Source: a virus. From it: a DNA stretch of 30,728 bases. A model generated the notes under the pieces. The model made no database searches. It was not told the origin of the DNA and was given only the letters and a program-made list of their open reading frames with translations. Shown here one piece after another: positions 1,629 to 30,728 of the stretch; position 1 is the first letter of the stretch, and each line of letters opens with the position of its first letter. The translations under genes were made by a program, and so were the position numbers. Location of the stretch: the IMG/VR virus record IMGVR_UViG_3300020392_000051, positions 1 through 30,728 of that record; one strand, 5' to 3'.

Positions 1629-2717
1629 ATGGTCAATACAGACGCTTTATTGAGCGAATGGGCATACCGATGCAAGAAGGGCTATCCAGACATGGATAGC
1701 CCCTCTGATCTTAAGGTTCTTAAGGATATCCTTAATGAGTGGGAAATTTCATTGCCCGAGTTTCAAGAACAAGTTATTACAGAACAAGAAAAAAAGGAAA
1801 TATCAGTTCAAGATATTGAAGAGATTTTAAATCAAATTAAGGATGATCAAAAAGCCCTTGATAAGATTTATAAGTTTATTATTAATAGACCAGGTGAAAA
1901 AGGATTTTTTGGTGTAGCTACTGATTCAAATGTTACTGATAAAACTGTAGATACATCTAATGCACCACAAGTTATATTTGATTTATTATCTAATAGTGGT
2001 GATTTAAAAAAATATATAGATTTAGAAAAACCCGGGTATAGTGAAATTGGTAAGGAAGGTAATTTTTTAGACTTTTTTGAAAAAAAATCGGGAATGTCTA
2101 GAGAGACTCTTACTAAAATGTTTAATTTTTCTGGAAAAGAAAGTGGAAGGGGTGTAGGTAAAGGAGAGGTAGCTATGGCGTTGTTATTTAAGGATGTAAA
2201 AATGGCGTCTGCAGGTGCAGGTGATTTAGATTGGAGTGGAAAGTCTTTAGAAGTAAAAGGATCTAATGCTCGTTTAGGAGGAAGAGATAGAAAATTTGAA
2301 GGGTTTGAACGTACAGCTTTAGGGCAGTTAGCTACTAAATATGATAAATCCGATGAAAAATTAACAACTCTTATTACTAATTTAGCAGATGAAGATGGAA
2401 TAGATAATAAAGAATTATTAGATGCTGTTATTGATTTTGAAGAAAAAGCCCACCCAAAAGGAGATGCTAAAAAATATTTTACTGAGAATATTTTAGGTAA
2501 TCCTATCGAACTTAGAAAATCATTTACTAAAAATTTAATTAAACATTATTCTACAAGTAAAAATATAGACCATTTTATATGGTGGAATAGTGAAAGTAGA
2601 TTTGGGAAATATATATCCTTTACACCTGAAGAAGCGGATGGATTAGTTGATAAAGGAGATTTAAGAACTAATAACATGTTTGTTTATCAATTAGATCCTT
2701 CTATTTCCAAACCCTAA
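1629..2717 (+). CDS. Protein with PD-(D/E)XK-like nuclease core
   Basis: The 362-aa protein has an N-terminal helical module (about 1-45, with ALLSEWAYRCKKGYPDMD), an acidic helical linker (about 50-90) and a larger globular part. The segment GKGEVAMALLF, then GDLDWSGKSLEVKGSNARL, gives Glu180, Asp201, Glu208 and Lys210 in the E...D...ExK arrangement of PD-(D/E)XK nucleases. The rest to the C-terminus is charged and mixed helix/strand. A DNA nuclease or a DNA-processing virion protein is the best inference. The exact family is not recognised, and the motif alone does not prove activity. The 5' end of the gene is less AT-rich than its surroundings and contains a strong inverted repeat at 1679-1702. 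The ATG lies 13 bases after the acidic gene. Confidence 0.6.
   Translation: MVNTDALLSEWAYRCKKGYPDMDSPSDLKVLKDILNEWEISLPEFQEQVITEQEKKEISVQDIEEILNQIKDDQKALDKIYKFIINRPGEKGFFGVATDSNVTDKTVDTSNAPQVIFDLLSNSGDLKKYIDLEKPGYSEIGKEGNFLDFFEKKSGMSRETLTKMFNFSGKESGRGVGKGEVAMALLFKDVKMASAGAGDLDWSGKSLEVKGSNARLGGRDRKFEGFERTALGQLATKYDKSDEKLTTLITNLADEDGIDNKELLDAVIDFEEKAHPKGDAKKYFTENILGNPIELRKSFTKNLIKHYSTSKNIDHFIWWNSESRFGKYISFTPEEADGLVDKGDLRTNNMFVYQLDPSISKP
1679..1702 (+). repeat. Perfect 9-bp inverted repeat (RNA hairpin) inside the coding region
   Basis: GGGCTATCC (1679-1687) and GGATAGCCC (1694-1702) are exact inverted copies separated by the 6-base loop AGACAT. After one A-C mismatch the stem can continue for three more pairs (1675-1677 with 1704-1706). 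A stem this GC-rich stands out in such an AT-rich genome. It starts 50 bases into the gene at 1629. No U-tract follows, so it does not look like an intrinsic terminator. Confidence 0.7.
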
Positions 2718-3326: not shown

Positions 3327-4105
3327 TAGGAGCAGAACAAATAAAGGTTAATTTTGAAAACTTTAATGAAGTTTTAGAAGTTAATTTTGAAGGTGAACGT
3401 TTAGAAAAGCTAAAAACCCTTTCTGATTGCCTTAAAGAAAGAATGATGTTTGCACCTGCATCATCTAAAGACTGGTTTAATAACGCTTTTCCTGGTGGTT
3501 ATTTAGATCATGTTTTAAGAGTAAATAAAATAGCTAATCAACTTCATAAATTATATGATTTCCATGGTGCAACCGAATCTTATACAGGTGAAGAATTAAA
3601 TTTTGTATCACTATTTTGTCAATTAGGTAAATTAGGAGATTGGAATAATGAATATTTTACTAAAAATGATTCTGATTGGCACGTTAAAAACTTGGGTATG
3701 GTATATAAATTCAATGAGCATGTACCTGCTATGAAAGTTTATGATCGTACTATTTATCTTCTCCAAGATGCTGGTATTAAGATATCTCATAATGAATATT
3801 TAGCTATTCGTAATCAAGAAGGATTATTTGATGATAGTAATAAATTTTATTTTTATAGTGGCCAAAAAGAAACTAAGTTTAGAACCCATTTACCATTATT
3901 AATCCACCAGGCAATTCAAACTGCTCAAGAAATAGAATTTCAAATGTGGAATTCTGGAAATTCGGTTATACAACAATCGTCTAAACCCGCTAATGCCTCC
4001 AAAGCTGATAAAACTATAAGGAAGGCTAAAGCGATAAACGTAGAAAATAATCCTAATTTCAACGAAAAAACTAAATCAATTATTGATTCATTCTTTACAG
4101 ATTAA
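3323..4105 (+). CDS. HD-superfamily-like protein lacking its metal ligands
   Basis: The 260-aa protein follows the plan of phage HD-domain phosphohydrolase-like proteins: PGGYLDHVLRVNKIANQL (57-74), a helix FVSLFCQLGKLGDW (94-107), then DRTIYLLQDAGIKISHNEY and a later LPLLIHQAIQTAQE helix. In active HD enzymes the second helix reads like LLHDIGK; here the HD pair is Cys99-Gln100. The later His and Asp positions also look replaced (RNQEGL and IHQAIQ). His63 remains. This suggests a fold kept for binding or structure rather than hydrolysis, although my alignment is by eye. The C-terminal 60 residues are polar and probably flexible. The gene overlaps its upstream neighbour by four bases and abuts the next. 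Confidence 0.6.
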   Translation: MIGAEQIKVNFENFNEVLEVNFEGERLEKLKTLSDCLKERMMFAPASSKDWFNNAFPGGYLDHVLRVNKIANQLHKLYDFHGATESYTGEELNFVSLFCQLGKLGDWNNEYFTKNDSDWHVKNLGMVYKFNEHVPAMKVYDRTIYLLQDAGIKISHNEYLAIRNQEGLFDDSNKFYFYSGQKETKFRTHLPLLIHQAIQTAQEIEFQMWNSGNSVIQQSSKPANASKADKTIRKAKAINVENNPNFNEKTKSIIDSFFTD

Positions 4106-4354
4106 ATGGAAATTATAATTGCAATATTATCAGCCCTATTAATAGCCGCGGGTGTAGCTATAAGAAATCTTATAAGAAAAAACGAAATATTAGAAGATTT
4201 TATTGCGACCCAAAGTGAAGCTATAGATAAATGTAATCATAGATTAACTCAAATCGATGATAAAGGTATTTTTATAGCGGATGATGAAATAGGTTGGTTT
4301 TTTAATGAAGTTAAGAAGATACAGGAGGCATTAAACGAATTCCGCCTCCGTTAA
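4106..4354 (+). CDS. Small membrane-anchored protein with cytoplasmic helix
   Basis: The 82-aa product starts with one hydrophobic helix (IIIAILSALLIAAGVAI, about residues 3-19), then a basic stop-transfer stretch (RNLIRKNE). A helical region rich in charged residues and a conserved-looking patch follow (DDKGIFIADDEIGWFF), ending in an amphipathic helix. Similar one-helix proteins with a D-x-K-x-x-F...DDE...F patch occur in T4-related marine phages without known function; this comparison is from memory. It sits directly behind the HD-like gene and four bases before the sigma factor gene. Confidence 0.6.
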   Translation: MEIIIAILSALLIAAGVAIRNLIRKNEILEDFIATQSEAIDKCNHRLTQIDDKGIFIADDEIGWFFNEVKKIQEALNEFRLR

Positions 4355-4358
4355 CTTT

Positions 4359-5051
4359 ATGCCTAGAAAAAAAAGCAAACGACAATATTTTACAGAAGAT
4401 ACAGAAGCAGCTATAATAGAATATTTAGCTAGCGAAAATCAAGTAGAGAGAAATCGGATTTATAATGCACGAATTCACCATTCATTTTATAAATTAGCCG
4501 AAAATCTTATTCATACCTTTAAATTTTATTATACTGAGGTAGATGATCTCGAAGATTTAAAACACGAGGTTATTACATTTTTACTTGAAAAACTCCATTA
4601 CTTTAAAGTAGGAAAGGGTAAAGCCTTTTCTTATTTTAGTATTGTAGGTAAAAACTATCTTATTCTTTATAATAATAAAAATTATGCCAAAAAGAAAGGT
4701 AAAGCAGACCTTTTAGAAGTTGATACAGACTCAGGTATATTAAATAATTTTGAAAATAAAGAAAAACTAGACGAAAAAATAGAATTTTTAGATCTTTTTA
4801 TAGAAAAATTAGATCGTAAATTACCTACTATTTTTAATAAACCTAAAGATATTGTAGTAGCTGATGCTATAATAACCCTATTTAAAAAAAGAGAATCATT
4901 AGAAATCTTTAATAAAAAAGCTCTTTATATTTATATCAGAGAAATCACTGGGTGTGATACACCTTCTATTACTAAAGTTACTAAAAATTTAAAATCATAC
5001 TATATCAAAGCTTATAATCAATGGGAAAACGGTAAGCCAATAGTTTTATAA
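4359..5051 (+). CDS. 55: Late-transcription sigma factor, T4 gp55-like
   Basis: The 230-aa protein resembles the T4 gp55 family of late sigma factors, which bind host RNA polymerase and recognise only a short -10-like element. After a basic N-terminus (MPRKKSKRQYF), residues about 25-100 form a region-2-like helical bundle. It includes TEVDDLEDLKHEVITFLLEK and VGKGKAFSYFSIVGKNYLI, matching the sigma region 2 pattern DL...E......K......AFxYF....N. The C-terminal half is divergent and contains a helix-turn-helix-like segment (about 185-215). It is longer than T4 gp55 (185 aa). A promoter-like element recurring in this window (TATATTTATA) is a plausible target. It lies in front of the structural block it would be expected to switch on. 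Confidence 0.7.
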   Translation: MPRKKSKRQYFTEDTEAAIIEYLASENQVERNRIYNARIHHSFYKLAENLIHTFKFYYTEVDDLEDLKHEVITFLLEKLHYFKVGKGKAFSYFSIVGKNYLILYNNKNYAKKKGKADLLEVDTDSGILNNFENKEKLDEKIEFLDLFIEKLDRKLPTIFNKPKDIVVADAIITLFKKRESLEIFNKKALYIYIREITGCDTPSITKVTKNLKSYYIKAYNQWENGKPIVL

Positions 5052-5054
5052 TTA

Positions 5055-5066
5055 TATATTTATAAC
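5055..5066 (+). promoter_or_regulatory. Candidate late promoter element TATATTTATAAC
   Basis: The 16-base gap between the sigma factor gene and the next gene consists almost entirely of this element, and the ATG follows one base later (5068). It is identical to the copy at 702-713. If it acts as a -10-type box, the transcript would start at or inside the beginning of the gene, giving a leaderless message or serving a start further downstream. Confidence 0.4.
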
Positions 5067-5067
5067 T

Positions 5068-5448
5068 ATGAATACTCCACTCGATACAGTATTATTTAAT
5101 GGAAAAACATCTTCTGATGTATTTAAGGAAATATATGATAACAGCAAAAAAAAGGATAAACAAATTAATTCTTTAATTGCCGAACTAAAACCCTTAATAC
5201 AAAATATTGGAGATGCACCAGTAGTTGTACCCCTTATAAAAGAATATTTAGAAGTTAGTGTAAAAAATGATGAACATCTTATAAAAATGATGGCTGTCAT
5301 ACAAAGAATGGGTAATAATAATGGTTCAGGTGGTAGTGATTCTCTTTTAACAGACGAAGAATTAAAACAACTTCAACAAATAGCAGAAGAAGTAGCACAA
5401 GATGCCAACAAATCAACTAAAAACATTAAAAGGCCAAAGGAGCAATAA
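5068..5448 (+). CDS. Hypothetical protein with coiled-coil, start of the hub operon
   Basis: The 126-aa protein is not recognised. It is helical, with a basic patch (NSKKKDKQINSLIAELKPLI), a second helix (EYLEVSVKNDEHLIKMMAVI), a flexible NNNGSGGSDS linker at about 83-92 and a C-terminal acidic helix (TDEELKQLQQIAEEVAQDA). It could be a tail chaperone or assembly factor, judging only by its place directly upstream of the baseplate hub gene. Its last 47 bases overlap the beginning of that gene in another frame, which is more than the 1-11 base overlaps elsewhere in the window. Confidence 0.65.
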   Translation: MNTPLDTVLFNGKTSSDVFKEIYDNSKKKDKQINSLIAELKPLIQNIGDAPVVVPLIKEYLEVSVKNDEHLIKMMAVIQRMGNNNGSGGSDSLLTDEELKQLQQIAEEVAQDANKSTKNIKRPKEQ

Positions 5449-23000: not shown

Positions 23001-25102
23001 ACTTTTCTATTCTAGAAATTAGTGGATCAACTCAAGTAGATAATGCTACAGGTATTACTGGTACTGAAGTAGGTAAAACACTATCATTTACAGATGGTAC
23101 TACTGCTTTTACACTTCCTTCTAGTGCTTCTATTAGTGCTTCTTCTGCCGTAGTGAATAGTATATCTCCTATAATTTTAAATAGACCTATATTAACTATA
23201 GACAGTACTGGAAGCGCAATATTTAGATCTGCATCTGTATTAGGGGATCCTAGTGGTTTTGTAAGTGCTAGTTTTACTATTAATACACCAGAGCCGGGAA
23301 TATTTTTAGGAACAGGATTAAATATAGATACTAATTTTGATTCTGGGAAAAATATTAGAATGAGAATATTTTCAGGAAGTACCCTAGTTACTTCGTCAGT
23401 AAACCAATCTTCATTATCATTAGGAACAGGATATACAGAGACTAGTATAGATGATTTAGCCCCTAATAATTCAACAGGTTCAGGAGCAAACATAACTTTA
23501 GGATTTTTATCTGCGAGCACCCCTATTAGAATAGATTTAGATGTAGTAGATAACGGTAATAGTTCAATAAGTATATCTCCTAGTTTTTCCGCAAGTTTTT
23601 CTAATTTAGGTATTCATTATTTAACCGCAAGTAATTTTATAATTAATAAGGCTAATACTGGAATAGGAGGAGGTAGTACAGGATTTGCTATTGATCAAGC
23701 ATATAACCAAATAAGAATCGATTCCACAGCAACATCTCCACCTTTTACTAATGGAGCTATAACCCAAAGTACATCAGAGGTTAACGAACCAAGTGCAGAA
23801 AATTTTGGTTTTATAACAACTACAACAACATTAGGACCAGGAATATTATTTCTTACTTCTAGTATGCCGGCTACGTACCACCAAGTTACTACCCCTCGTC
23901 CTTTAGTTATAGAACGTGATATAGATTTATCCTCTAATAGAAGATATGAAATTACACAATCTTTACTCTTTACAACTTCTTCTACAGACACAGATAAAGT
24001 CTACGTAAGGATGTTTAGAAAAGGTGGTGTACAATCATTTGGTTCTTTTGGAAGCTTTAATGTACCCTCCCCAACAGAAGGAGGTGATTTTCCTGGTCCT
24101 AAAATCACAACTCAAGCTTTTACAGGTATAGAAAATACTTTAGAAGAATTTAAAGGAACCGTAGATATAGCTTCTAACCAAGCAGGAACATATACTATTC
24201 AATTATACTATGGCACAGGAAGTACCAGTAATTTTACTTTTGATAATCTCCCTGATGAAACTTCAGATGTAGTAGTTCATTTAACTTCTGCTTCTTTAAA
24301 AGAATTTGCCCCAACAGCTTCTATTACACGAATAAGTGGAGATGCTTTTACATCTGCTGATGTAAGTAATATAAGAGTTAAAACAGCAGAAGGAAACTTT
24401 TTTACAGCCCAAAATTCAAATATTCTTCTTGAAACAGGAAGTAATCAAATTCATGTATCAACCTCATTTGCAAACGAAAATGGATTATTACTCCCTCCAG
24501 TAGATAGCTTTAATGAATTTACAGTTGATAATACTAATAAAATAGGTTTAAATAACGGGGAAATCTTTATAATTAATGGAGAAATAACAGCATCAAATAA
24601 TAATACATTTTTATATTTTACCCCAACTTCATCATTAAATATAGTTGGTGGTTTTAATAGTGATATGGAGGGTGGTAGTTTTACTGATGCTATACAAGGA
24701 GATTTTTTAATTACATCAGCTCCTACTAATACTTTTATTGTAAACCAAAACTATTTTAGTACTACAAACCAAACATTTACTATAAATTATATAGATCCTA
24801 CAAGCATTAGCAATTTTGATTTAAAATTTAAAAATACACATTTAATTTTTGAAAATGAATATATGTGTACTGTGGAAGAAGATGAATATAATTTTACTCT
24901 AAACCCAACAGTTAGAAAACTCCAATCTATACATGGGGATGAATTAGCTGATTTTGCTACAGGTTCAAACTTTAAACCATATGTAACAACGATAGGTTTA
25001 TATAGTGATGATGGTGAATTATTAGTAGTAGGTAAATTAGGACAACCTATTAAGATGAGTGATGAAACTGATACAACATTTATAGTAAGATACGATACAT
25101 GA
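20093..25102 (+). CDS. Giant tail-fibre/adhesin protein with LamG domain
   Basis: At 1669 aa this is the longest protein in the window. The N-terminal framework (1-200) contains KLNASDINKSPAEAHKQWNI and SIPQGLFGSDIFPNSVNLLN. A concanavalin A/LamG-like domain follows at about 215-400: YIKFPHKNEYNFGENDNYTI, ISFYYKSP, NTLNHFAFVKTGSELQIWKD, ANLYVGVQGG and GTISQLMVFNKSLN. The middle (400-1550) is built of Ser/Thr/Gly-rich beta modules. Some look related to each other, with strands ending RSGSTTIVSQSF, RIFSGSTLVTSSV and RMFRKGG. The C-terminal domain (about 1585-1669, YVTTIGLYSDDGELLVVGKL) matches the end of the preceding protein. It is probably the receptor-binding fibre, with LamG contacting surface glycans. 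The stop overlaps the next ATG. Codon use looks like that of its neighbours. Confidence 0.72.
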   Translation: MFTYKKLNASDINKSPAEAHKQWNIDSDNTSSLGIDFFSARFSSASKFTFGVSDANETKKYFQLDHLYYNNKNNDYPVSELRYKDQEKRLYDQTNIISIPQGLFGSDIFPNSVNLLNTYKDDGLGNIYPITTDLDTYPVDEDRVLYLAPVKGFKSLNLNWDYKNGRELVNPPITLDKIDIDDSLYQNSFEYISSSISTLSELNCTGVNLNSGYIKFPHKNEYNFGENDNYTISFYYKSPSTLTGTKYLVAKSYSQTVVKSSETGISGLILNTNTSGSHQRHEVDAGQSTPFEIFLENNSLNFSIADDLHITTITTASALQTNTLNHFAFVKTGSELQIWKDGTKIKSGSVGEVKNTKTPANLYVGVQGGTRNRYNSSQGTISQLMVFNKSLNSTQISNVSESITGLPYVGNVFYENGLITVTSPKHNSSLLANNTITSSLVTIGPTVGNVNNFTEFAIDTSATVAFKSVISAFTSSFAHRNEVFTPSTFPAIPESTRIVVSTDTLGSNIGNTLKYELRLDSASSENYSVQAFSAKPFMNSAFHIPAFSQLDPILFPFGGALPGSNISGFTPSGSCSITSNTSKFILSASADAPSTSFATFKAINSQSRVEDNFPTSDTTLSDTVFQFTEGTSDSGSVYLADFNIDGLAMSGSLENIPDYTSNGAVINTISLNGLSSPNDTLVSLNSINLNGNPLTTSTNNLANDGIEISLSTNALLIKSVPSDVTPNVQFSINPKFTNTSTSRFKTAEISLRSGSTTIVSQSFSVPPSATTPISLGSITHNTNIATNDSYSIFADLGGESSLTMTECPFLIKEQNPTGGKRNKVALIDAMFPFRSLNNNKSFRYLVKFDEVHTSSSNQGSGPNHNGLISSSLLIQLKTVGTRPSKSNPGTFVTEDVIITSSIYNPMVSSGSFIHLINPGDLTPEGTEDYFLDSDQILTTLIKVIPSGTAFTPGTETLESFEGGEGFTLKNFSILEISGSTQVDNATGITGTEVGKTLSFTDGTTAFTLPSSASISASSAVVNSISPIILNRPILTIDSTGSAIFRSASVLGDPSGFVSASFTINTPEPGIFLGTGLNIDTNFDSGKNIRMRIFSGSTLVTSSVNQSSLSLGTGYTETSIDDLAPNNSTGSGANITLGFLSASTPIRIDLDVVDNGNSSISISPSFSASFSNLGIHYLTASNFIINKANTGIGGGSTGFAIDQAYNQIRIDSTATSPPFTNGAITQSTSEVNEPSAENFGFITTTTTLGPGILFLTSSMPATYHQVTTPRPLVIERDIDLSSNRRYEITQSLLFTTSSTDTDKVYVRMFRKGGVQSFGSFGSFNVPSPTEGGDFPGPKITTQAFTGIENTLEEFKGTVDIASNQAGTYTIQLYYGTGSTSNFTFDNLPDETSDVVVHLTSASLKEFAPTASITRISGDAFTSADVSNIRVKTAEGNFFTAQNSNILLETGSNQIHVSTSFANENGLLLPPVDSFNEFTVDNTNKIGLNNGEIFIINGEITASNNNTFLYFTPTSSLNIVGGFNSDMEGGSFTDAIQGDFLITSAPTNTFIVNQNYFSTTNQTFTINYIDPTSISNFDLKFKNTHLIFENEYMCTVEEDEYNFTLNPTVRKLQSIHGDELADFATGSNFKPYVTTIGLYSDDGELLVVGKLGQPIKMSDETDTTFIVRYDT

Positions 25103-25524
25103 TAATACCAGAAAGTTATGAACAATTCCCAGAAGGCACATATGGATACGTTTATCAAACAACCCATATACCTTCAGGAAAAAAATACGTAGGTAAAAAA
25201 GCCTTAATATATAACCAAAAGAAAAAAATTGGTAAACGTGAATTAGCACTGTGGGAAGGTAAGGGTCGACCACCAGTTTATAAGCAAGTTCAAAAAGAAA
25301 GCGATTGGAAAACCTATTATGGTTCTCATCAATTTATTAAAGATGAAATTAAGGAAGGTAACCAACCCCATTTTGAGCGTATAATTTTACAATTAGCCTA
25401 CTCTAAAAAAGAATTAACTTACTTAGAAAATAAAGCATTATTTAGTTTAGGTGTTTTAGAAACCGAAGATTATTTAAATGATAACATCGAAGGAAGATAC
25501 TTTAAGAGGGATTTTGGCCTTTGA
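25099..25524 (+). CDS. GIY-YIG-type nuclease
   Basis: The 141-aa protein opens with TYGYVYQTTHIPSGKKYVGK, in which Gly16-Tyr17-Val18-Tyr19 and Tyr30-Val31-Gly32 are the two halves of a GIY-YIG motif. SDWKTYYGSHQFIKDEI (68-84) and KELTYLENKALF follow, with Glu110 in the position of the metal-binding Glu. Related stand-alone proteins in T4-like phages include the Seg endonucleases. No separate DNA-binding domain follows, so it may be a DNA-repair or junction-processing nuclease rather than a homing enzyme. It overlaps the end of the giant fibre gene by four bases and ends 23 bases before the primase, so it sits at the switch from structural to replication genes. Confidence 0.72.
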   Translation: MIIPESYEQFPEGTYGYVYQTTHIPSGKKYVGKKALIYNQKKKIGKRELALWEGKGRPPVYKQVQKESDWKTYYGSHQFIKDEIKEGNQPHFERIILQLAYSKKELTYLENKALFSLGVLETEDYLNDNIEGRYFKRDFGL

Positions 25525-26496: not shown

Positions 26497-29400
26497 ATGA
26501 AAATAGCCCTTTTACCTGGTGGGTTTAAACCACCCCACCTTGGACATTATAATATGGCAAAATATCTCGCAGATTTTGCAGATAAAGTTATAGTAAGAAT
26601 TGGACAAAAAGAAAGAGAGGGCATAGGATCTCCTTTAGCTTTAGAAATATGGAATTTTTATAAAGAGTTTGACTCTGACTCGCGTGCTCAAAAATTAATT
26701 ATAAGTGTAGCACAATCACCTTCTCCTGTAAAAGATGTATATGATTTTGTAGAAAGTGTAGCACCTGAAGGTTCTACTATTATTTTAGGTTTAGGTGAAA
26801 AAGATGCTACTGATGGACGTTATAACAATATCCCAAAATTTGCAGAACCACGTAATATTAAAGCAGACATTGAATTAGTCCCCCCTCAAGCTGGAGGTAT
26901 TTCAGGTACCCGTATGCGTGAAATTATTAAAAATAATAATAAAGAAGAATTTTTTAAATTTATCCCTGAATTTTTACCTAAAGAAGTTAAAGAAGAAATT
27001 TGGACTAAATTAGTAGATACTACTATGCCATCTGAAATAGGTGAAATGATGGGAGGTACTATGAATAAACAAGAAATGGCTAAACATATGGCTAATATGA
27101 AAAAATTGCGCAAGTTTTTTTCTAAACAAGGGGACCAAATGACAGAAATACCCCCTAAACTAACTAAAGGATTACGCAGAAAATTATATGAAGGCCGTTA
27201 TGGTCAAGAAACTTTAATGCAGTCTAGATTTATAGTTAATATATTTAAGGCTAATTTTGGTGAGTTTACCGAAGAAAGTACCGAAGGTAATATAGGAGGA
27301 ATTGAGTATGAATTAGATTATATATTTGAACCAAATATTAAAGAAGTAGGACCATTACCTTTTATAATTGATGGTGAAGCTGATTATGATACTTTACAAA
27401 TCAAAATCAAATATAACCCTGATAGATTTCCTGAAGCATATACTGAATTAATTCCCGAAATTAAAGATACAATTCGCCATGAATTAGAACATATAGCTCA
27501 ATTTAATTTTTCTAAGGGAGTTAACCCCAATTCCCAAAAATTAAGTAAATATACTTGGTTTCAGTATTTTACATTTGACCATGAAATACCTGCTTTTGTT
27601 CAGGGTTTATATAAAAGAGCTAAAACTAAACGTATTTCATTTACCGAAGCAGTAAATGAATTTTTAATCAATTATCTTGATGTCTTAACAGATGAAGAAG
27701 AAATTAAGATAAAACAGATTTGGACGGATTATGCTCGTAAAAATTTACCCGCAGCACAAATAGATGAAAAACGTGACCCCAAAGTAGGTACAGGTAAAAA
27801 ACCAAAAGGATCAGGACGTAGACTTTACACAGATGAAGACCCTACAGATACAGTAAAAGTTAAATTTAGTACTAGACAAGATATAGTAGATACTTTATCT
27901 AAAAAATCATTTAAAGCTAAATCGCATGCTCGTCAATCACAAATTATTAATTTAATCCACCAACGAGTTAGAGCGGCTTTAAACAGAACTAAAGATCCAG
28001 CTACTAAAAAACGGTTACGTTCTGCATTTGAATATATTAAAAAACGTAAAGAAGCATCTAAAAAGAAAACTATTCGTTTACGTAAGTTAAAAAAGGAAAA
28101 TTACCCAATGTATAATGCTGCCGAGGTAGGATATACTAGATATAGAGCAAGTGATGTATTTACTAGGGACCCCAAAAAGGCAAAAAAATTAGGTTATTTA
28201 GAGGATAATGGGTTGGAGGAAATTGGTATTGATTTAAGTAACTATAGTGGACAAATACTTCCTGGTGATGTTTTACGTGCTCCTAAAGGATTTCCATTAG
28301 GGGGTAAAAAATTAGAAAAGTCTAAAGTTGTAAAAGTTATAAAAAATTCAAGAGAAGGAGTAAATAGATATAAGTTATCATTAGAAGATAAAGATGGTAA
28401 AAGATTTACTGTTAGAAATTTTGAAATGGATGGAGAATACCAAGGTAAAAAATTACCTAAATTTGGGCTTATACGTAAATCTAAAAAGAATATAAAAGAA
28501 GCAAAATCAACCCATACTGTAATAGCAAAAGGAATAGTTTTTGAACCTAAAAATCTTAAGATTAATATTGGAGATACTGTTAAATGGATTAATAAAGAGG
28601 GGGTTCATAACGTTAATGGGAAAGATGAAAATAATCCTGAAAAATTTGGCAATAAAGTAGGATCAGGCTGGACATATTCATTTACGTTTACTAAACCGGG
28701 AACATATAAATACCATTGTGATCCCCATAAAACTGCAGGTATGGGAGGAGTTATAAAAGTAAAAGATAAAGTAGATGAGGGAGATACTTATGAAAAAATG
28801 GCTGCTAAAGGTAAAAAAGCAGGTAATTTAAAACAAGGTACAGTTAGAAAAAGACTTCGTATCCCTAAGGGTGAAAAAATACCTTTATCATTAATTAATA
28901 AAGAAATATCACGCCTTAAAAAGATGGAAAAAAGAAGTCCTAAAAACCAAAAATATTATAAGGCACTTACTTTAGCTAAAACATTAAAAACAACAACTAA
29001 CGTGAACGAACATAGATTATTTTCACAAGATTGGTGGTCAGATGTAATCACTGAAGAACTATTATACGAAGGGGGTGCTGCAGGTCATATGGCACACCCA
29101 TTTGATTTACCTAATGTAAATAATGGTAAAGATTTAATTAAATCATTTGAACAAGCTGCTAATAGTCTTAAAAAAACACCCGGTAGTGTCAAAATAGATG
29201 GCGTAAATGCGTCAATTAGATTAATAAATCTCGATGGAAAACGCGTCTTCGCCATGGACCGTGGATCAAAAAAGGCACTTGATTTACGTGGCGTTACTAA
29301 AGCTGACTTAGAAGATAGATTTGGTCCAGGCCACGGAATGATTAAAGCAGGTGGTAATGTATTAGATATATTTAATGATGCTTTACCTTCAATTCAAGAA

Positions 29401-30138
29401 GAATTAAACGCATTAGGGTTAATTGATGACCCTAACATTATGTTTAATATGGAGTATGTTAGTGGTAAATCTAACGTACAAGATTATGGTAAAAATTTCT
29501 TAGCAATACATGGTTTATTAAAAGTAGAAACTAAAGAAGTACAAGGCGCTCGTAAAATGTTAACTAAACGAATAACATCTGAAAAATTATATGATAAGGC
29601 TGATTTAGAAGAATTACTTAAAAAGTTAGAACCATTTGCTAAAAAGAAAGGATTTGAAATTTATGGTTCAGTACCTACTACATTTACTAAAGAACCAGAC
29701 TTTAGCTCTGCATTAAACCAAAAATACACTATAGATTTTGCCGAGGGAGACCAAACTAAAACATTAGCTCAATGGTTAAATGGTGTTACTAATATTCCTA
29801 AAACTGATCGTTTGAAAATGAATATTGAAGAAACTGATTCTATAAAAGATGTAGGTGCATTAAGTAAACAAGTATATTTTGCTGTGTTTGGGGGTGAAAA
29901 TGTAGATTCATTATTTAGTACGGAGCAAGAAGTCCAAAAAGCCATTCAGGGAGCTACTACATACTTAGCAACAGAAAAATTAGGTGATGCAATATTAGAT
30001 GTATTAGATTCGCCGATGGGTTCTGTTAATGATCATGAAGGTGTAGTTATACGTGACGATAAAATCTCACCTAAACCCTTTAAAGTTACAGGTAAATTTA
30101 TAACCGGAGGTGTATCCTCGGATTTTCAGAAAAAATGA
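26497..30138 (+). CDS. Multi-enzyme fusion: nucleotidyltransferase, metallopeptidase, blue-copper and ligase domains
   Basis: The 1213-aa chain holds at least four recognisable domains. (1) 1-165: HxGH nucleotidyltransferase (GGFKPPHLGH with His14/His17, ISGTRMR 135-141), of the NMN/pantetheine-phosphate/cytidylyl-transferase type. (2) About 233-420: HExxH zinc-peptidase-like domain (IRHELEHIAQFN, His328-Glu329-His332, probable third ligand Glu363 in DHEIPAF). (3) 425-665: basic helical segment, then an unassigned beta-rich region. (4) 673-756: plastocyanin-like cupredoxin with ligands His704, Cys741, His744, Met749 (YHCDPHKTAGMGG). (5) 762-835: basic module. (6) About 860-1213: ATP-dependent polynucleotide-ligase fold with motif I SVKIDG (Lys899), NMEYV, motif IV EGVVIRDD (1181-1188) and motif V KPFKVTGKF. 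No frameshift or stop interrupts it. Substrates are unknown. Packaging in the virion is a hypothesis. Its stop overlaps the next ATG. Confidence 0.8.
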   Translation: MKIALLPGGFKPPHLGHYNMAKYLADFADKVIVRIGQKEREGIGSPLALEIWNFYKEFDSDSRAQKLIISVAQSPSPVKDVYDFVESVAPEGSTIILGLGEKDATDGRYNNIPKFAEPRNIKADIELVPPQAGGISGTRMREIIKNNNKEEFFKFIPEFLPKEVKEEIWTKLVDTTMPSEIGEMMGGTMNKQEMAKHMANMKKLRKFFSKQGDQMTEIPPKLTKGLRRKLYEGRYGQETLMQSRFIVNIFKANFGEFTEESTEGNIGGIEYELDYIFEPNIKEVGPLPFIIDGEADYDTLQIKIKYNPDRFPEAYTELIPEIKDTIRHELEHIAQFNFSKGVNPNSQKLSKYTWFQYFTFDHEIPAFVQGLYKRAKTKRISFTEAVNEFLINYLDVLTDEEEIKIKQIWTDYARKNLPAAQIDEKRDPKVGTGKKPKGSGRRLYTDEDPTDTVKVKFSTRQDIVDTLSKKSFKAKSHARQSQIINLIHQRVRAALNRTKDPATKKRLRSAFEYIKKRKEASKKKTIRLRKLKKENYPMYNAAEVGYTRYRASDVFTRDPKKAKKLGYLEDNGLEEIGIDLSNYSGQILPGDVLRAPKGFPLGGKKLEKSKVVKVIKNSREGVNRYKLSLEDKDGKRFTVRNFEMDGEYQGKKLPKFGLIRKSKKNIKEAKSTHTVIAKGIVFEPKNLKINIGDTVKWINKEGVHNVNGKDENNPEKFGNKVGSGWTYSFTFTKPGTYKYHCDPHKTAGMGGVIKVKDKVDEGDTYEKMAAKGKKAGNLKQGTVRKRLRIPKGEKIPLSLINKEISRLKKMEKRSPKNQKYYKALTLAKTLKTTTNVNEHRLFSQDWWSDVITEELLYEGGAAGHMAHPFDLPNVNNGKDLIKSFEQAANSLKKTPGSVKIDGVNASIRLINLDGKRVFAMDRGSKKALDLRGVTKADLEDRFGPGHGMIKAGGNVLDIFNDALPSIQEELNALGLIDDPNIMFNMEYVSGKSNVQDYGKNFLAIHGLLKVETKEVQGARKMLTKRITSEKLYDKADLEELLKKLEPFAKKKGFEIYGSVPTTFTKEPDFSSALNQKYTIDFAEGDQTKTLAQWLNGVTNIPKTDRLKMNIEETDSIKDVGALSKQVYFAVFGGENVDSLFSTEQEVQKAIQGATTYLATEKLGDAILDVLDSPMGSVNDHEGVVIRDDKISPKPFKVTGKFITGGVSSDFQKK

Positions 30139-30425
30139 AATTAAAAGATATATTAAAAGAAGTTGAAGATAATTCTGAAAATATCCAGCCGGATTTTATC
30201 TTACCCAGGGGTCAAAGAGTTATATTGCAAGCTGAAGAAACCGATTATAAAAGAGGTTTATTTGTAGAACTTAGAGAAGACGGAGGTTATAATATAAACT
30301 ACTGGATTGGTGATGATCCTAAAGTTTACCCAATTGAGGCAATAATTGATGGAGAATCAATAAAACCTGATGCAAAAGAAATATATTTAAAATTCCACCC
30401 AGAACTTAAAAAAAATGAAACTTAA
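30135..30425 (+). CDS. Hypothetical protein with capsid-targeting-like leader
   Basis: The 96-aa protein begins MKLKDILKEVEDNSEN. The first nine residues are identical to those of the next gene, although several codons differ. The leader is like the T4 capsid-targeting sequence of internal proteins (about ten residues ending in [LI]-x-E, cut by prohead protease), with LKE at 7-9. The rest is a compact beta-rich domain (FILPRGQRVILQAEE, GLFVELREDGGYNINYWIGD) with a basic end. I do not recognise the family. It overlaps the fusion gene by four bases (ATGA) and the next gene by eleven, so the three are translationally coupled. An internal head protein is the hypothesis. Confidence 0.6.
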   Translation: MKLKDILKEVEDNSENIQPDFILPRGQRVILQAEETDYKRGLFVELREDGGYNINYWIGDDPKVYPIEAIIDGESIKPDAKEIYLKFHPELKKNET

Positions 30426-30728
30426 AGATATACTAAAAGAAATTACTATTAGTCGCAATATTGAAATTGATATTGTAGGTAATGATATTATGATAAAACA
30501 AGGTGATCGTGTAAGTGGTAAACTTACCAGCATTAGCATAGCTTATGTAGGAATGTCAGATCGCATTTATAGAGGTTACTTATTTGTAGATGATGGAGGA
30601 TCTAGACCACAACAAATAAATCTTGATGGTGGTGAGAGAGGATTATTTGAATTCTATGATGCTGTGGGTGCTGGAAGAGGAGCCCAAGCAAGAGAATTTT
30701 TTGAAAAATATGGCGTTGAAATAAGTGC
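30415..30728 (+). CDS. Hypothetical protein with capsid-targeting-like leader (partial)
   Basis: An ATG at 30415, inside the last bases of the previous gene, opens a frame that stays open to the window edge (104 codons visible). It starts MKLKDILKEITISRNIEIDI, sharing MKLKDILKE with the gene before it. A beta-rich stretch follows (IMIKQGDRVSGKLTSIS, then YRGYLFVDDGGSRPQQINLD) and a helical part (GAQAREFFEKYGVEIS). The first visible strands and the GYLFVDDGG phrase loosely recall GLFVELREDGG in the upstream protein, so the two may be diverged duplicates. The C-terminus lies outside the window and no function can be assigned. Confidence 0.6.
   Translation, partial: MKLKDILKEITISRNIEIDIVGNDIMIKQGDRVSGKLTSISIAYVGMSDRIYRGYLFVDDGGSRPQQINLDGGERGLFEFYDAVGAGRGAQAREFFEKYGVEIS

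Follow-up and report, generated by a model that had tools for sequence, protein, structure and literature searches.

Background

Among the systems described so far, the internal proteins of phage T4 and the polyvalent proteins come closest to the gene analysed here. The T4 prohead protease gp21 cuts after L/I-x-E, and the first 10 residues of the internal protein IPIII suffice for targeting to the head (PMC9026906). The T4 internal proteins are small and often basic cargo that is packed and ejected with the DNA; IPI, IPII, IPIII and Alt carry a leader of about 10 residues with a gp21-type end, each being encoded by a separate gene and losing its propeptide. Polyvalent proteins combine unrelated enzyme domains, often including a metallopeptidase, in one polypeptide, are encoded near virion genes and are thought to be injected; their domains have been proposed to be set free by embedded metallopeptidases (Iyer et al. 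2017, PMC5512222). The gene in question, from a marine phage, is an open reading frame (ORF) of the viral record IMGVR_UViG_3300020392_000051, of which positions 1 to 30,728 were analysed (the window). It occupies positions 26497-30138 of the plus strand in one unbroken frame and encodes 1213 amino acids (aa).

This locus resembles both systems. The phage group to which it belongs has leaders of about 10 residues with a gp21-type end as well as gp21 and gp23 genes, and the cargo is likewise small and often basic and, judged from the sequence, would be packed and ejected with the DNA. In T4, however, every cargo is a gene of its own, whereas here many are united in one chain, have joints at their boundaries and are shuffled between phages. 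As in polyvalent proteins, several unrelated domains are found in one polypeptide near virion genes, the window carrying baseplate genes, but prohead-protease joints, capsid-targeting leaders or a cupredoxin domain, which are present here, are not described in the passages of that paper that were consulted (PMC5512222).

Single proteins of cultured phages can also be compared. Gp088 of Flavobacterium phage immuto (YP_010114595.1) contains the nucleotidyltransferase and HExxH segments and the joint VMAE|GRYD, and WWT39297.1 of Microcystis phage Mel-JY01 contains the nucleotidyltransferase, a ligase-type segment and the joint IIAE|GGLGGHM (the vertical bar, as in VNE|, gives the junction position throughout). 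Both have fewer segments, lack the cupredoxin and are annotated only as adenylyltransferase and cytidylyltransferase. T4-GC190 (S-PM2p142) is a nucleotidyltransferase of the phrog_395 family whose gene adjoins a gene with a KxDG ligase-type motif in S-PM2, but it is not a many-segment chain and its homology to the window's segment is at the family level. Plastocyanin (PetE) of cyanophages such as P-SSM2 belongs to the same cupredoxin family, but there it is a separate photosynthesis-related gene, whereas here it is one cassette of a cargo chain and has no signal peptide.

Organisation of the chain

Our analysis shows that the gene is a modular chain of about nine segments and not a single four-enzyme protein. 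We consider it probable, from sequence comparison, that its product is a cargo polyprotein made by a far-T4-type myovirus, which would be packed into the prohead, cut by gp21 and delivered together with the DNA. An earlier, sequence-only reading had described four chained enzyme-like domains. The motifs of all four are indeed present, including a complete blue-copper site with the type-1 ligands H704, C741, H744 and M749, although the cupredoxin is an electron-transfer protein rather than an enzyme, and it is chiefly motifs that support the ligase-type and peptidase-like domains. What that reading overlooked was the prohead-protease motif at the joints and the capsid-targeting-like leader on the next two genes. 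The chain is composed as follows:

26497..27045, plus strand: segment NT (aa 1-183), predicted HIGH-superfamily nucleotidyltransferase with HLGH at 14-17 and ISGTRMR, C-terminus IGE|
27046..27192, plus strand: segment O (aa 184-232), short and basic, between IGE| and LYE|
27193..27768, plus strand: segment pep1 (aa 233-424), putative HExxH metallopeptidase with HELEH at 328-332, C-terminus IDE|
27769..28098, plus strand: segment A (aa 425-534), basic DPKVGTGKKPKGSGRRLYTDE segment, C-terminus LKKE|, a non-canonical joint
28099..28221, plus strand: segment B (aa 535-575), short NYPMYNAAEVGYTRY segment, C-terminus LEE|
28222..28500, plus strand: segment C (aa 576-668), IGIDLSNYSGQILPGDV segment, C-terminus IKE|
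28501..28779, plus strand: segment Cu (aa 669-761), plastocyanin-type cupredoxin with a complete copper site, C-terminus VDE|
28780..29010, plus strand: segment E (aa 762-838), basic GDTYEKMAAKGKKAGNLKQGTVRKRL segment, C-terminus VNE|
29011..29070, plus strand: internal leader-like stretch (aa 839-858), HRLFSQDWWSDVITEELLYE|, preceding the ligase-type segment
29071..30135, plus strand: segment LIG (aa 859-1213), starting GGAAGHMAHPFD, likely ligase-type covalent nucleotidyltransferase with KIDG at 899-902 and EGVVIRD at 1181-1187

Shuffling of segments among relatives

For comparison, 32 relatives were fetched from viral contigs and compared by local alignment. The order of the domains varies, which the sequence-only reading missed: in 20-odd relatives from other metagenomes the segments are found in another order, number and combination or as separate genes, and a fixed multi-enzyme is rejected because of this shuffling. 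Neighbours were counted with a segment finder based on simple patterns, which missed a few copies. Segment A is preceded by 8 different neighbours (the gene start counted as one), the ligase-type segment likewise by 8 and segment B by 4, while the long chains of this group invariably have the nucleotidyltransferase as their first recognised segment. The HExxH segment is located at the C-terminus in L021, and extra segments ending in LNE|, LEE| and LSE| precede segment O directly in L008, L012 and L021.

Several segments are free-standing in related phages. In L031, segments A and C are separate genes with the leaders MIKLLEILNE| and MIKLFDILSE|, in L023 the ligase-type segment is a separate gene, and the gene that follows the chain in the window, at 30135, corresponds to a segment inside the chain of L029. 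Segment A (EPKKGTGKHPGKKYGRRLYTDENPRDTV) also occurs as a leaderless separate gene of 96 aa (gp40; L034, 6001-6291) in Pelagibacter phage HTVC033P, which belongs to another type of phage.

The window's order was recovered in three contigs from other metagenomes (L001, L002 and L003; 79-88% identity in the best segment), which lack only the cupredoxin, L002 ending inside the last segment. The cupredoxin thereby appears as a clean cassette, L001 reading KSKKN-VDE|GDTY and the window KSKKN-IKE|(cupredoxin)-VDE|GDTY. These contigs also bear on the suspicion that an assembly join or a frameshift has fused separate genes, which could be fed by the occurrence of several segments as separate genes in related phages. 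Long open chains are nevertheless present in many independent metagenome contigs, three of them with the window's order, and comparable chains exist in the cultured phages immuto and Mel-JY01, so that such an artefact is extremely improbable and, for the general architecture, already refuted; the cupredoxin, which occupies other positions in L029 and L030, is known at this position from the window alone.

The motif at the joints

At the joints a short motif recurs. The exact sequence [LIV]-x-E was found at 46 of 61 distinct junction contexts, namely the starts of segments A, B, C, E, F, M and the ligase-type segment, with 0.9 expected; contexts were deduplicated by sequence, and since the phages are related a binomial p-value is not to be taken literally. 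For individual segments the agreement was 7/7 distinct upstream contexts for segment C and 12/13 for segment E, and the middle position of the motif varies freely. In an unbiased test, BLAST alignments ended exactly at the motif in 43 of 339 cases (12.7%, compared to 1.7% at random). The starts of the alignments, in contrast, peak 3 residues ahead of the joint, the motif being common to both copies.

The ligase-type segment was the most extensively sampled, with 81 distinct ORFs, and the motif stands directly before its GG in 59 of 61 distinct upstream contexts. The first exception, L106/L107, contains an apparent in-frame insertion of an HNH endonuclease after an earlier LLTE|GGAA: at 2555-5029 of L106, and also in L107, an HNH homing endonuclease-like stretch (KIECKICG..., HLDHKYSILEGY) lies between LLTE|GGAAD and a second GGAAGHM. 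The second exception is L128, a 235-kb contig in which the segment is free (3998-5131), starts with M|GGAAGHM, has no leader and carries an extra C-terminal tail; it is possibly a non-packaged version.

Capsid genes and leaders

Both gp23 (PF07068) and the S77 protease gp21 (PF03420) were found in 4/4 related contigs that cover the capsid genes. Judged by gp23, the nearest phages are immuto (54.5%), Mel-JY01 (51%) and Rhodothermus phage RM378 (37%), placing the group near the far-T4 phages (PMC4360716, PMC7198788), and a Bacteroidota host is plausible for the window's phage. The propeptide of T4 gp23 comprises 65 residues and ends at E65 (PMC5694885). In the gp23 alignment the column of this residue is invariant: the four contigs read QLVNE|A, QLVQE|A or QLVVE|S there, and Mel-JY01 reads QLISE|A. 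With V at P3 of this site in the four contigs, V is compatible with the phage group, as it has to be for the joints VDE, VNE and VKE.

In addition, the leader M(I)KLxxILxE starts about 60 distinct ORFs in the related contigs, with unrelated proteins following it, where 1.6 were expected after shuffling. The leaders of free-standing segments, MKLKDILxE| and MIKLLEILNE|, comprise 9-10 residues; that of T4 IPII and IPIII, MKTYQEFIAE| (sequence record), matches them in length and in the kind of end. Both genes downstream of the chain begin in this way:

30135..30425, plus strand: next gene, 96 aa, leader MKLKDILKE| followed by a segment that is also present in-chain in L029 (there KQKLNE|DVLDQTSLVLPRGKKIYLQAEEEDYDRGL)
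30415..30728, plus strand: second following gene, leader MKLKDILKE|, running off the window; relatives at the same place in many contigs

Ahead of the ligase-type segment, the chains of L009, L012, L013 and L057 read E|MKLFS(K/Q).WW...E|GG; from the internal methionine it looks as though a gene with a leader had been fused in together with its start codon. Another ORF of the window (1629-2717) has no PHROG match and starts MVNTDALLSE|WAYRC, its relative in L050 starting MVNIDALLNE|WAYRC; because of this shared leader-like start it may be a further leader-bearing cargo gene.

Two other explanations of the chain were weighed. Following the model of Iyer et al. (2017), the chain could be a polyvalent protein that is freed by its own HExxH metallopeptidase, either before packaging or after injection. 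An HExxH segment is indeed present in the window's chain and in most long relatives, and the published model invokes embedded metallopeptidases (PMC5512222). However, 49 of 70 complete ORFs with the ligase-type segment have no HExxH upstream and yet retain the [LIV]xE joint, the leaders of single-segment genes and the gp23 propeptide terminate in this motif as well, and the HExxH segment is itself just another movable segment. We therefore regard this explanation as unlikely, and auto-processing by the metallopeptidase as the sole route is disfavoured by the joints retained in ORFs without HExxH.

Alternatively, the product might be a stable, uncut multidomain protein of the virion or the cytoplasm whose linkers merely share a short sequence, in line with the motif-like tripeptides that also occur inside domains. 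This we consider quite improbable, as the motif is found at joints of unrelated neighbours far above chance, its middle position varies freely and the leaders of separate genes end alike; a stable protein would also leave unexplained why joints, leaders and gp23 have the motif in common. Of the roles suggested by the sequence-only reading, a precursor and an injected multi-enzyme fit the evidence, whereas a stable multi-enzyme or scaffold does not.

The proposed cargo polyprotein

Shuffled segments, a motif at their joints, leaders and the gp21 and gp23 genes of relatives are observed; cleavage, packaging, injection and an activity of each piece are what we infer for a cargo polyprotein, and the process would run as follows. 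The chain would join the prohead core, and the gp21-type prohead protease would cut it after exposed [L/I/V]-x-E joints into a nucleotidyltransferase, a putative metallopeptidase, several basic proteins, a cupredoxin and a ligase-type enzyme. After cutting, the pieces would remain alongside the DNA in the head and would probably reach the host cell on infection, while short leaders with the same terminal motif would send free-standing cargo genes to the head likewise. Since the insertion of a segment flanked by the motif leaves the adjoining segments intact, such pieces would be gained, lost and shuffled as cassettes. Independent support for packaging comes from mass spectrometry of purified S-SM1 virions, which revealed the cyanophage cytidylyltransferase T4-GC190 (PMC3037559), a member, like segment NT, of phrog_395.

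Several points weigh against a cargo polyprotein. The window is a fragment (30.7 kb) that contains neither gp21 nor gp23, both being seen in relatives. Its chain starts with MKIALLPGG and has no N-terminal leader, so that the internal LFSQDWW..LYE stretch is a targeting candidate only; the chains of L029-L031 and Mel-JY01 begin with leader-like stretches. Some joints deviate, such as LKKE| between A and B in the window and HKE| before segment F in relatives. Moreover, domain cores contain [LIV]xE as well (11 cases against 15.5 expected, a weak depletion for which no significance is claimed), so that the sites of cutting cannot be read from the motif by itself. Finally, the relation of the window's segment to the virion-detected T4-GC190 is at the family level only.

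Identity of the individual segments

The identity of the cupredoxin is certain from its sequence, with a match to Pfam PF00127 at aa 677-756 (E=1.6e-15, 57.7 bits, cut-off 21.2) and to plastocyanin 1bxu (E=2.2e-13). For segment NT, several weak lines of evidence, below curated cut-offs, together support a HIGH-type nucleotidyltransferase, which would act like one rather than being formally filed as one: phrog_395 was matched with E=1.8e-5, NCBIfam profiles with 3e-4 to 1e-3 and PDB adenylyltransferases, using a family profile, with 2e-4, GGFKPPH..GH and SGT..R are kept across distant relatives, and PF01467 reached 14.6 bits, under its cut-off of 21.

Segment LIG is likely a ligase-type covalent nucleotidyltransferase. 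K, DG, EG and K-x-TG are invariant in 12 diverse sequences and RNA/DNA ligases recur among the matches of a fold search, none of them with E<=0.001; profile and PDB sequence searches and a comparison with T4 RnlB gave no match, and by tblastn the ligase-type segment of L095 had no relative among cultured phages. In segment pep1, HExEH is invariant in 13 relatives, and the assignment as a putative peptidase is drawn from HExxH; its AlphaFold model (pLDDT 84.5) gave no credible PDB fold match, and no PDB sequence match was found. Guesses from family knowledge would assign the pieces to NAD/nucleotide metabolism, nucleic-acid repair, electron transfer and, for the basic segments, DNA binding.

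One shuffled segment of L012 and L013, located before the ligase-type leader, is DUF5661 (PF18905, E=4.3e-13 in L012); the function of this family is unknown, and its occurrence in a cargo chain gives a first hint of what it does. Elsewhere in the window, a small gene (25099-25524) matches phrog_447, named NAD synthetase, as well as homing-endonuclease PHROGs, which makes the phrog_447 label doubtful.

Conclusions

T4 internal proteins and polyvalent proteins are already known, and it is their combination with shuffling at protease joints that appears to be new; no cargo polyprotein with such shuffling at prohead-protease joints was described in the literature searched, which included few subscription journals and is not proof of absence. 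A cargo polyprotein explains an apparently absurd fusion, and a simple rule, [LIV]xE joints together with MKLKDILxE-type leaders, reads off the probable head cargo of an uncultured aquatic phage group, virion cargo being otherwise hard to infer from sequence.

More generally, though with less confidence than for the single chain, we favour the suggestion that far-T4-type phages use the head-maturation protease motif as the universal joint of a plug-in delivery system. Any protein flanked by the motif would join the cargo polyprotein, be packed in a fixed ratio, be released at maturation and be delivered to the host, and the system would evolve through cassette shuffling. If true, the capsid-targeting system of T4 would no longer be limited to individual internal proteins but would extend to a shuffled cargo chain, and many genes without a known function would become testable as injected effectors, with immuto and Mel-JY01 as cultured relatives for such a test.

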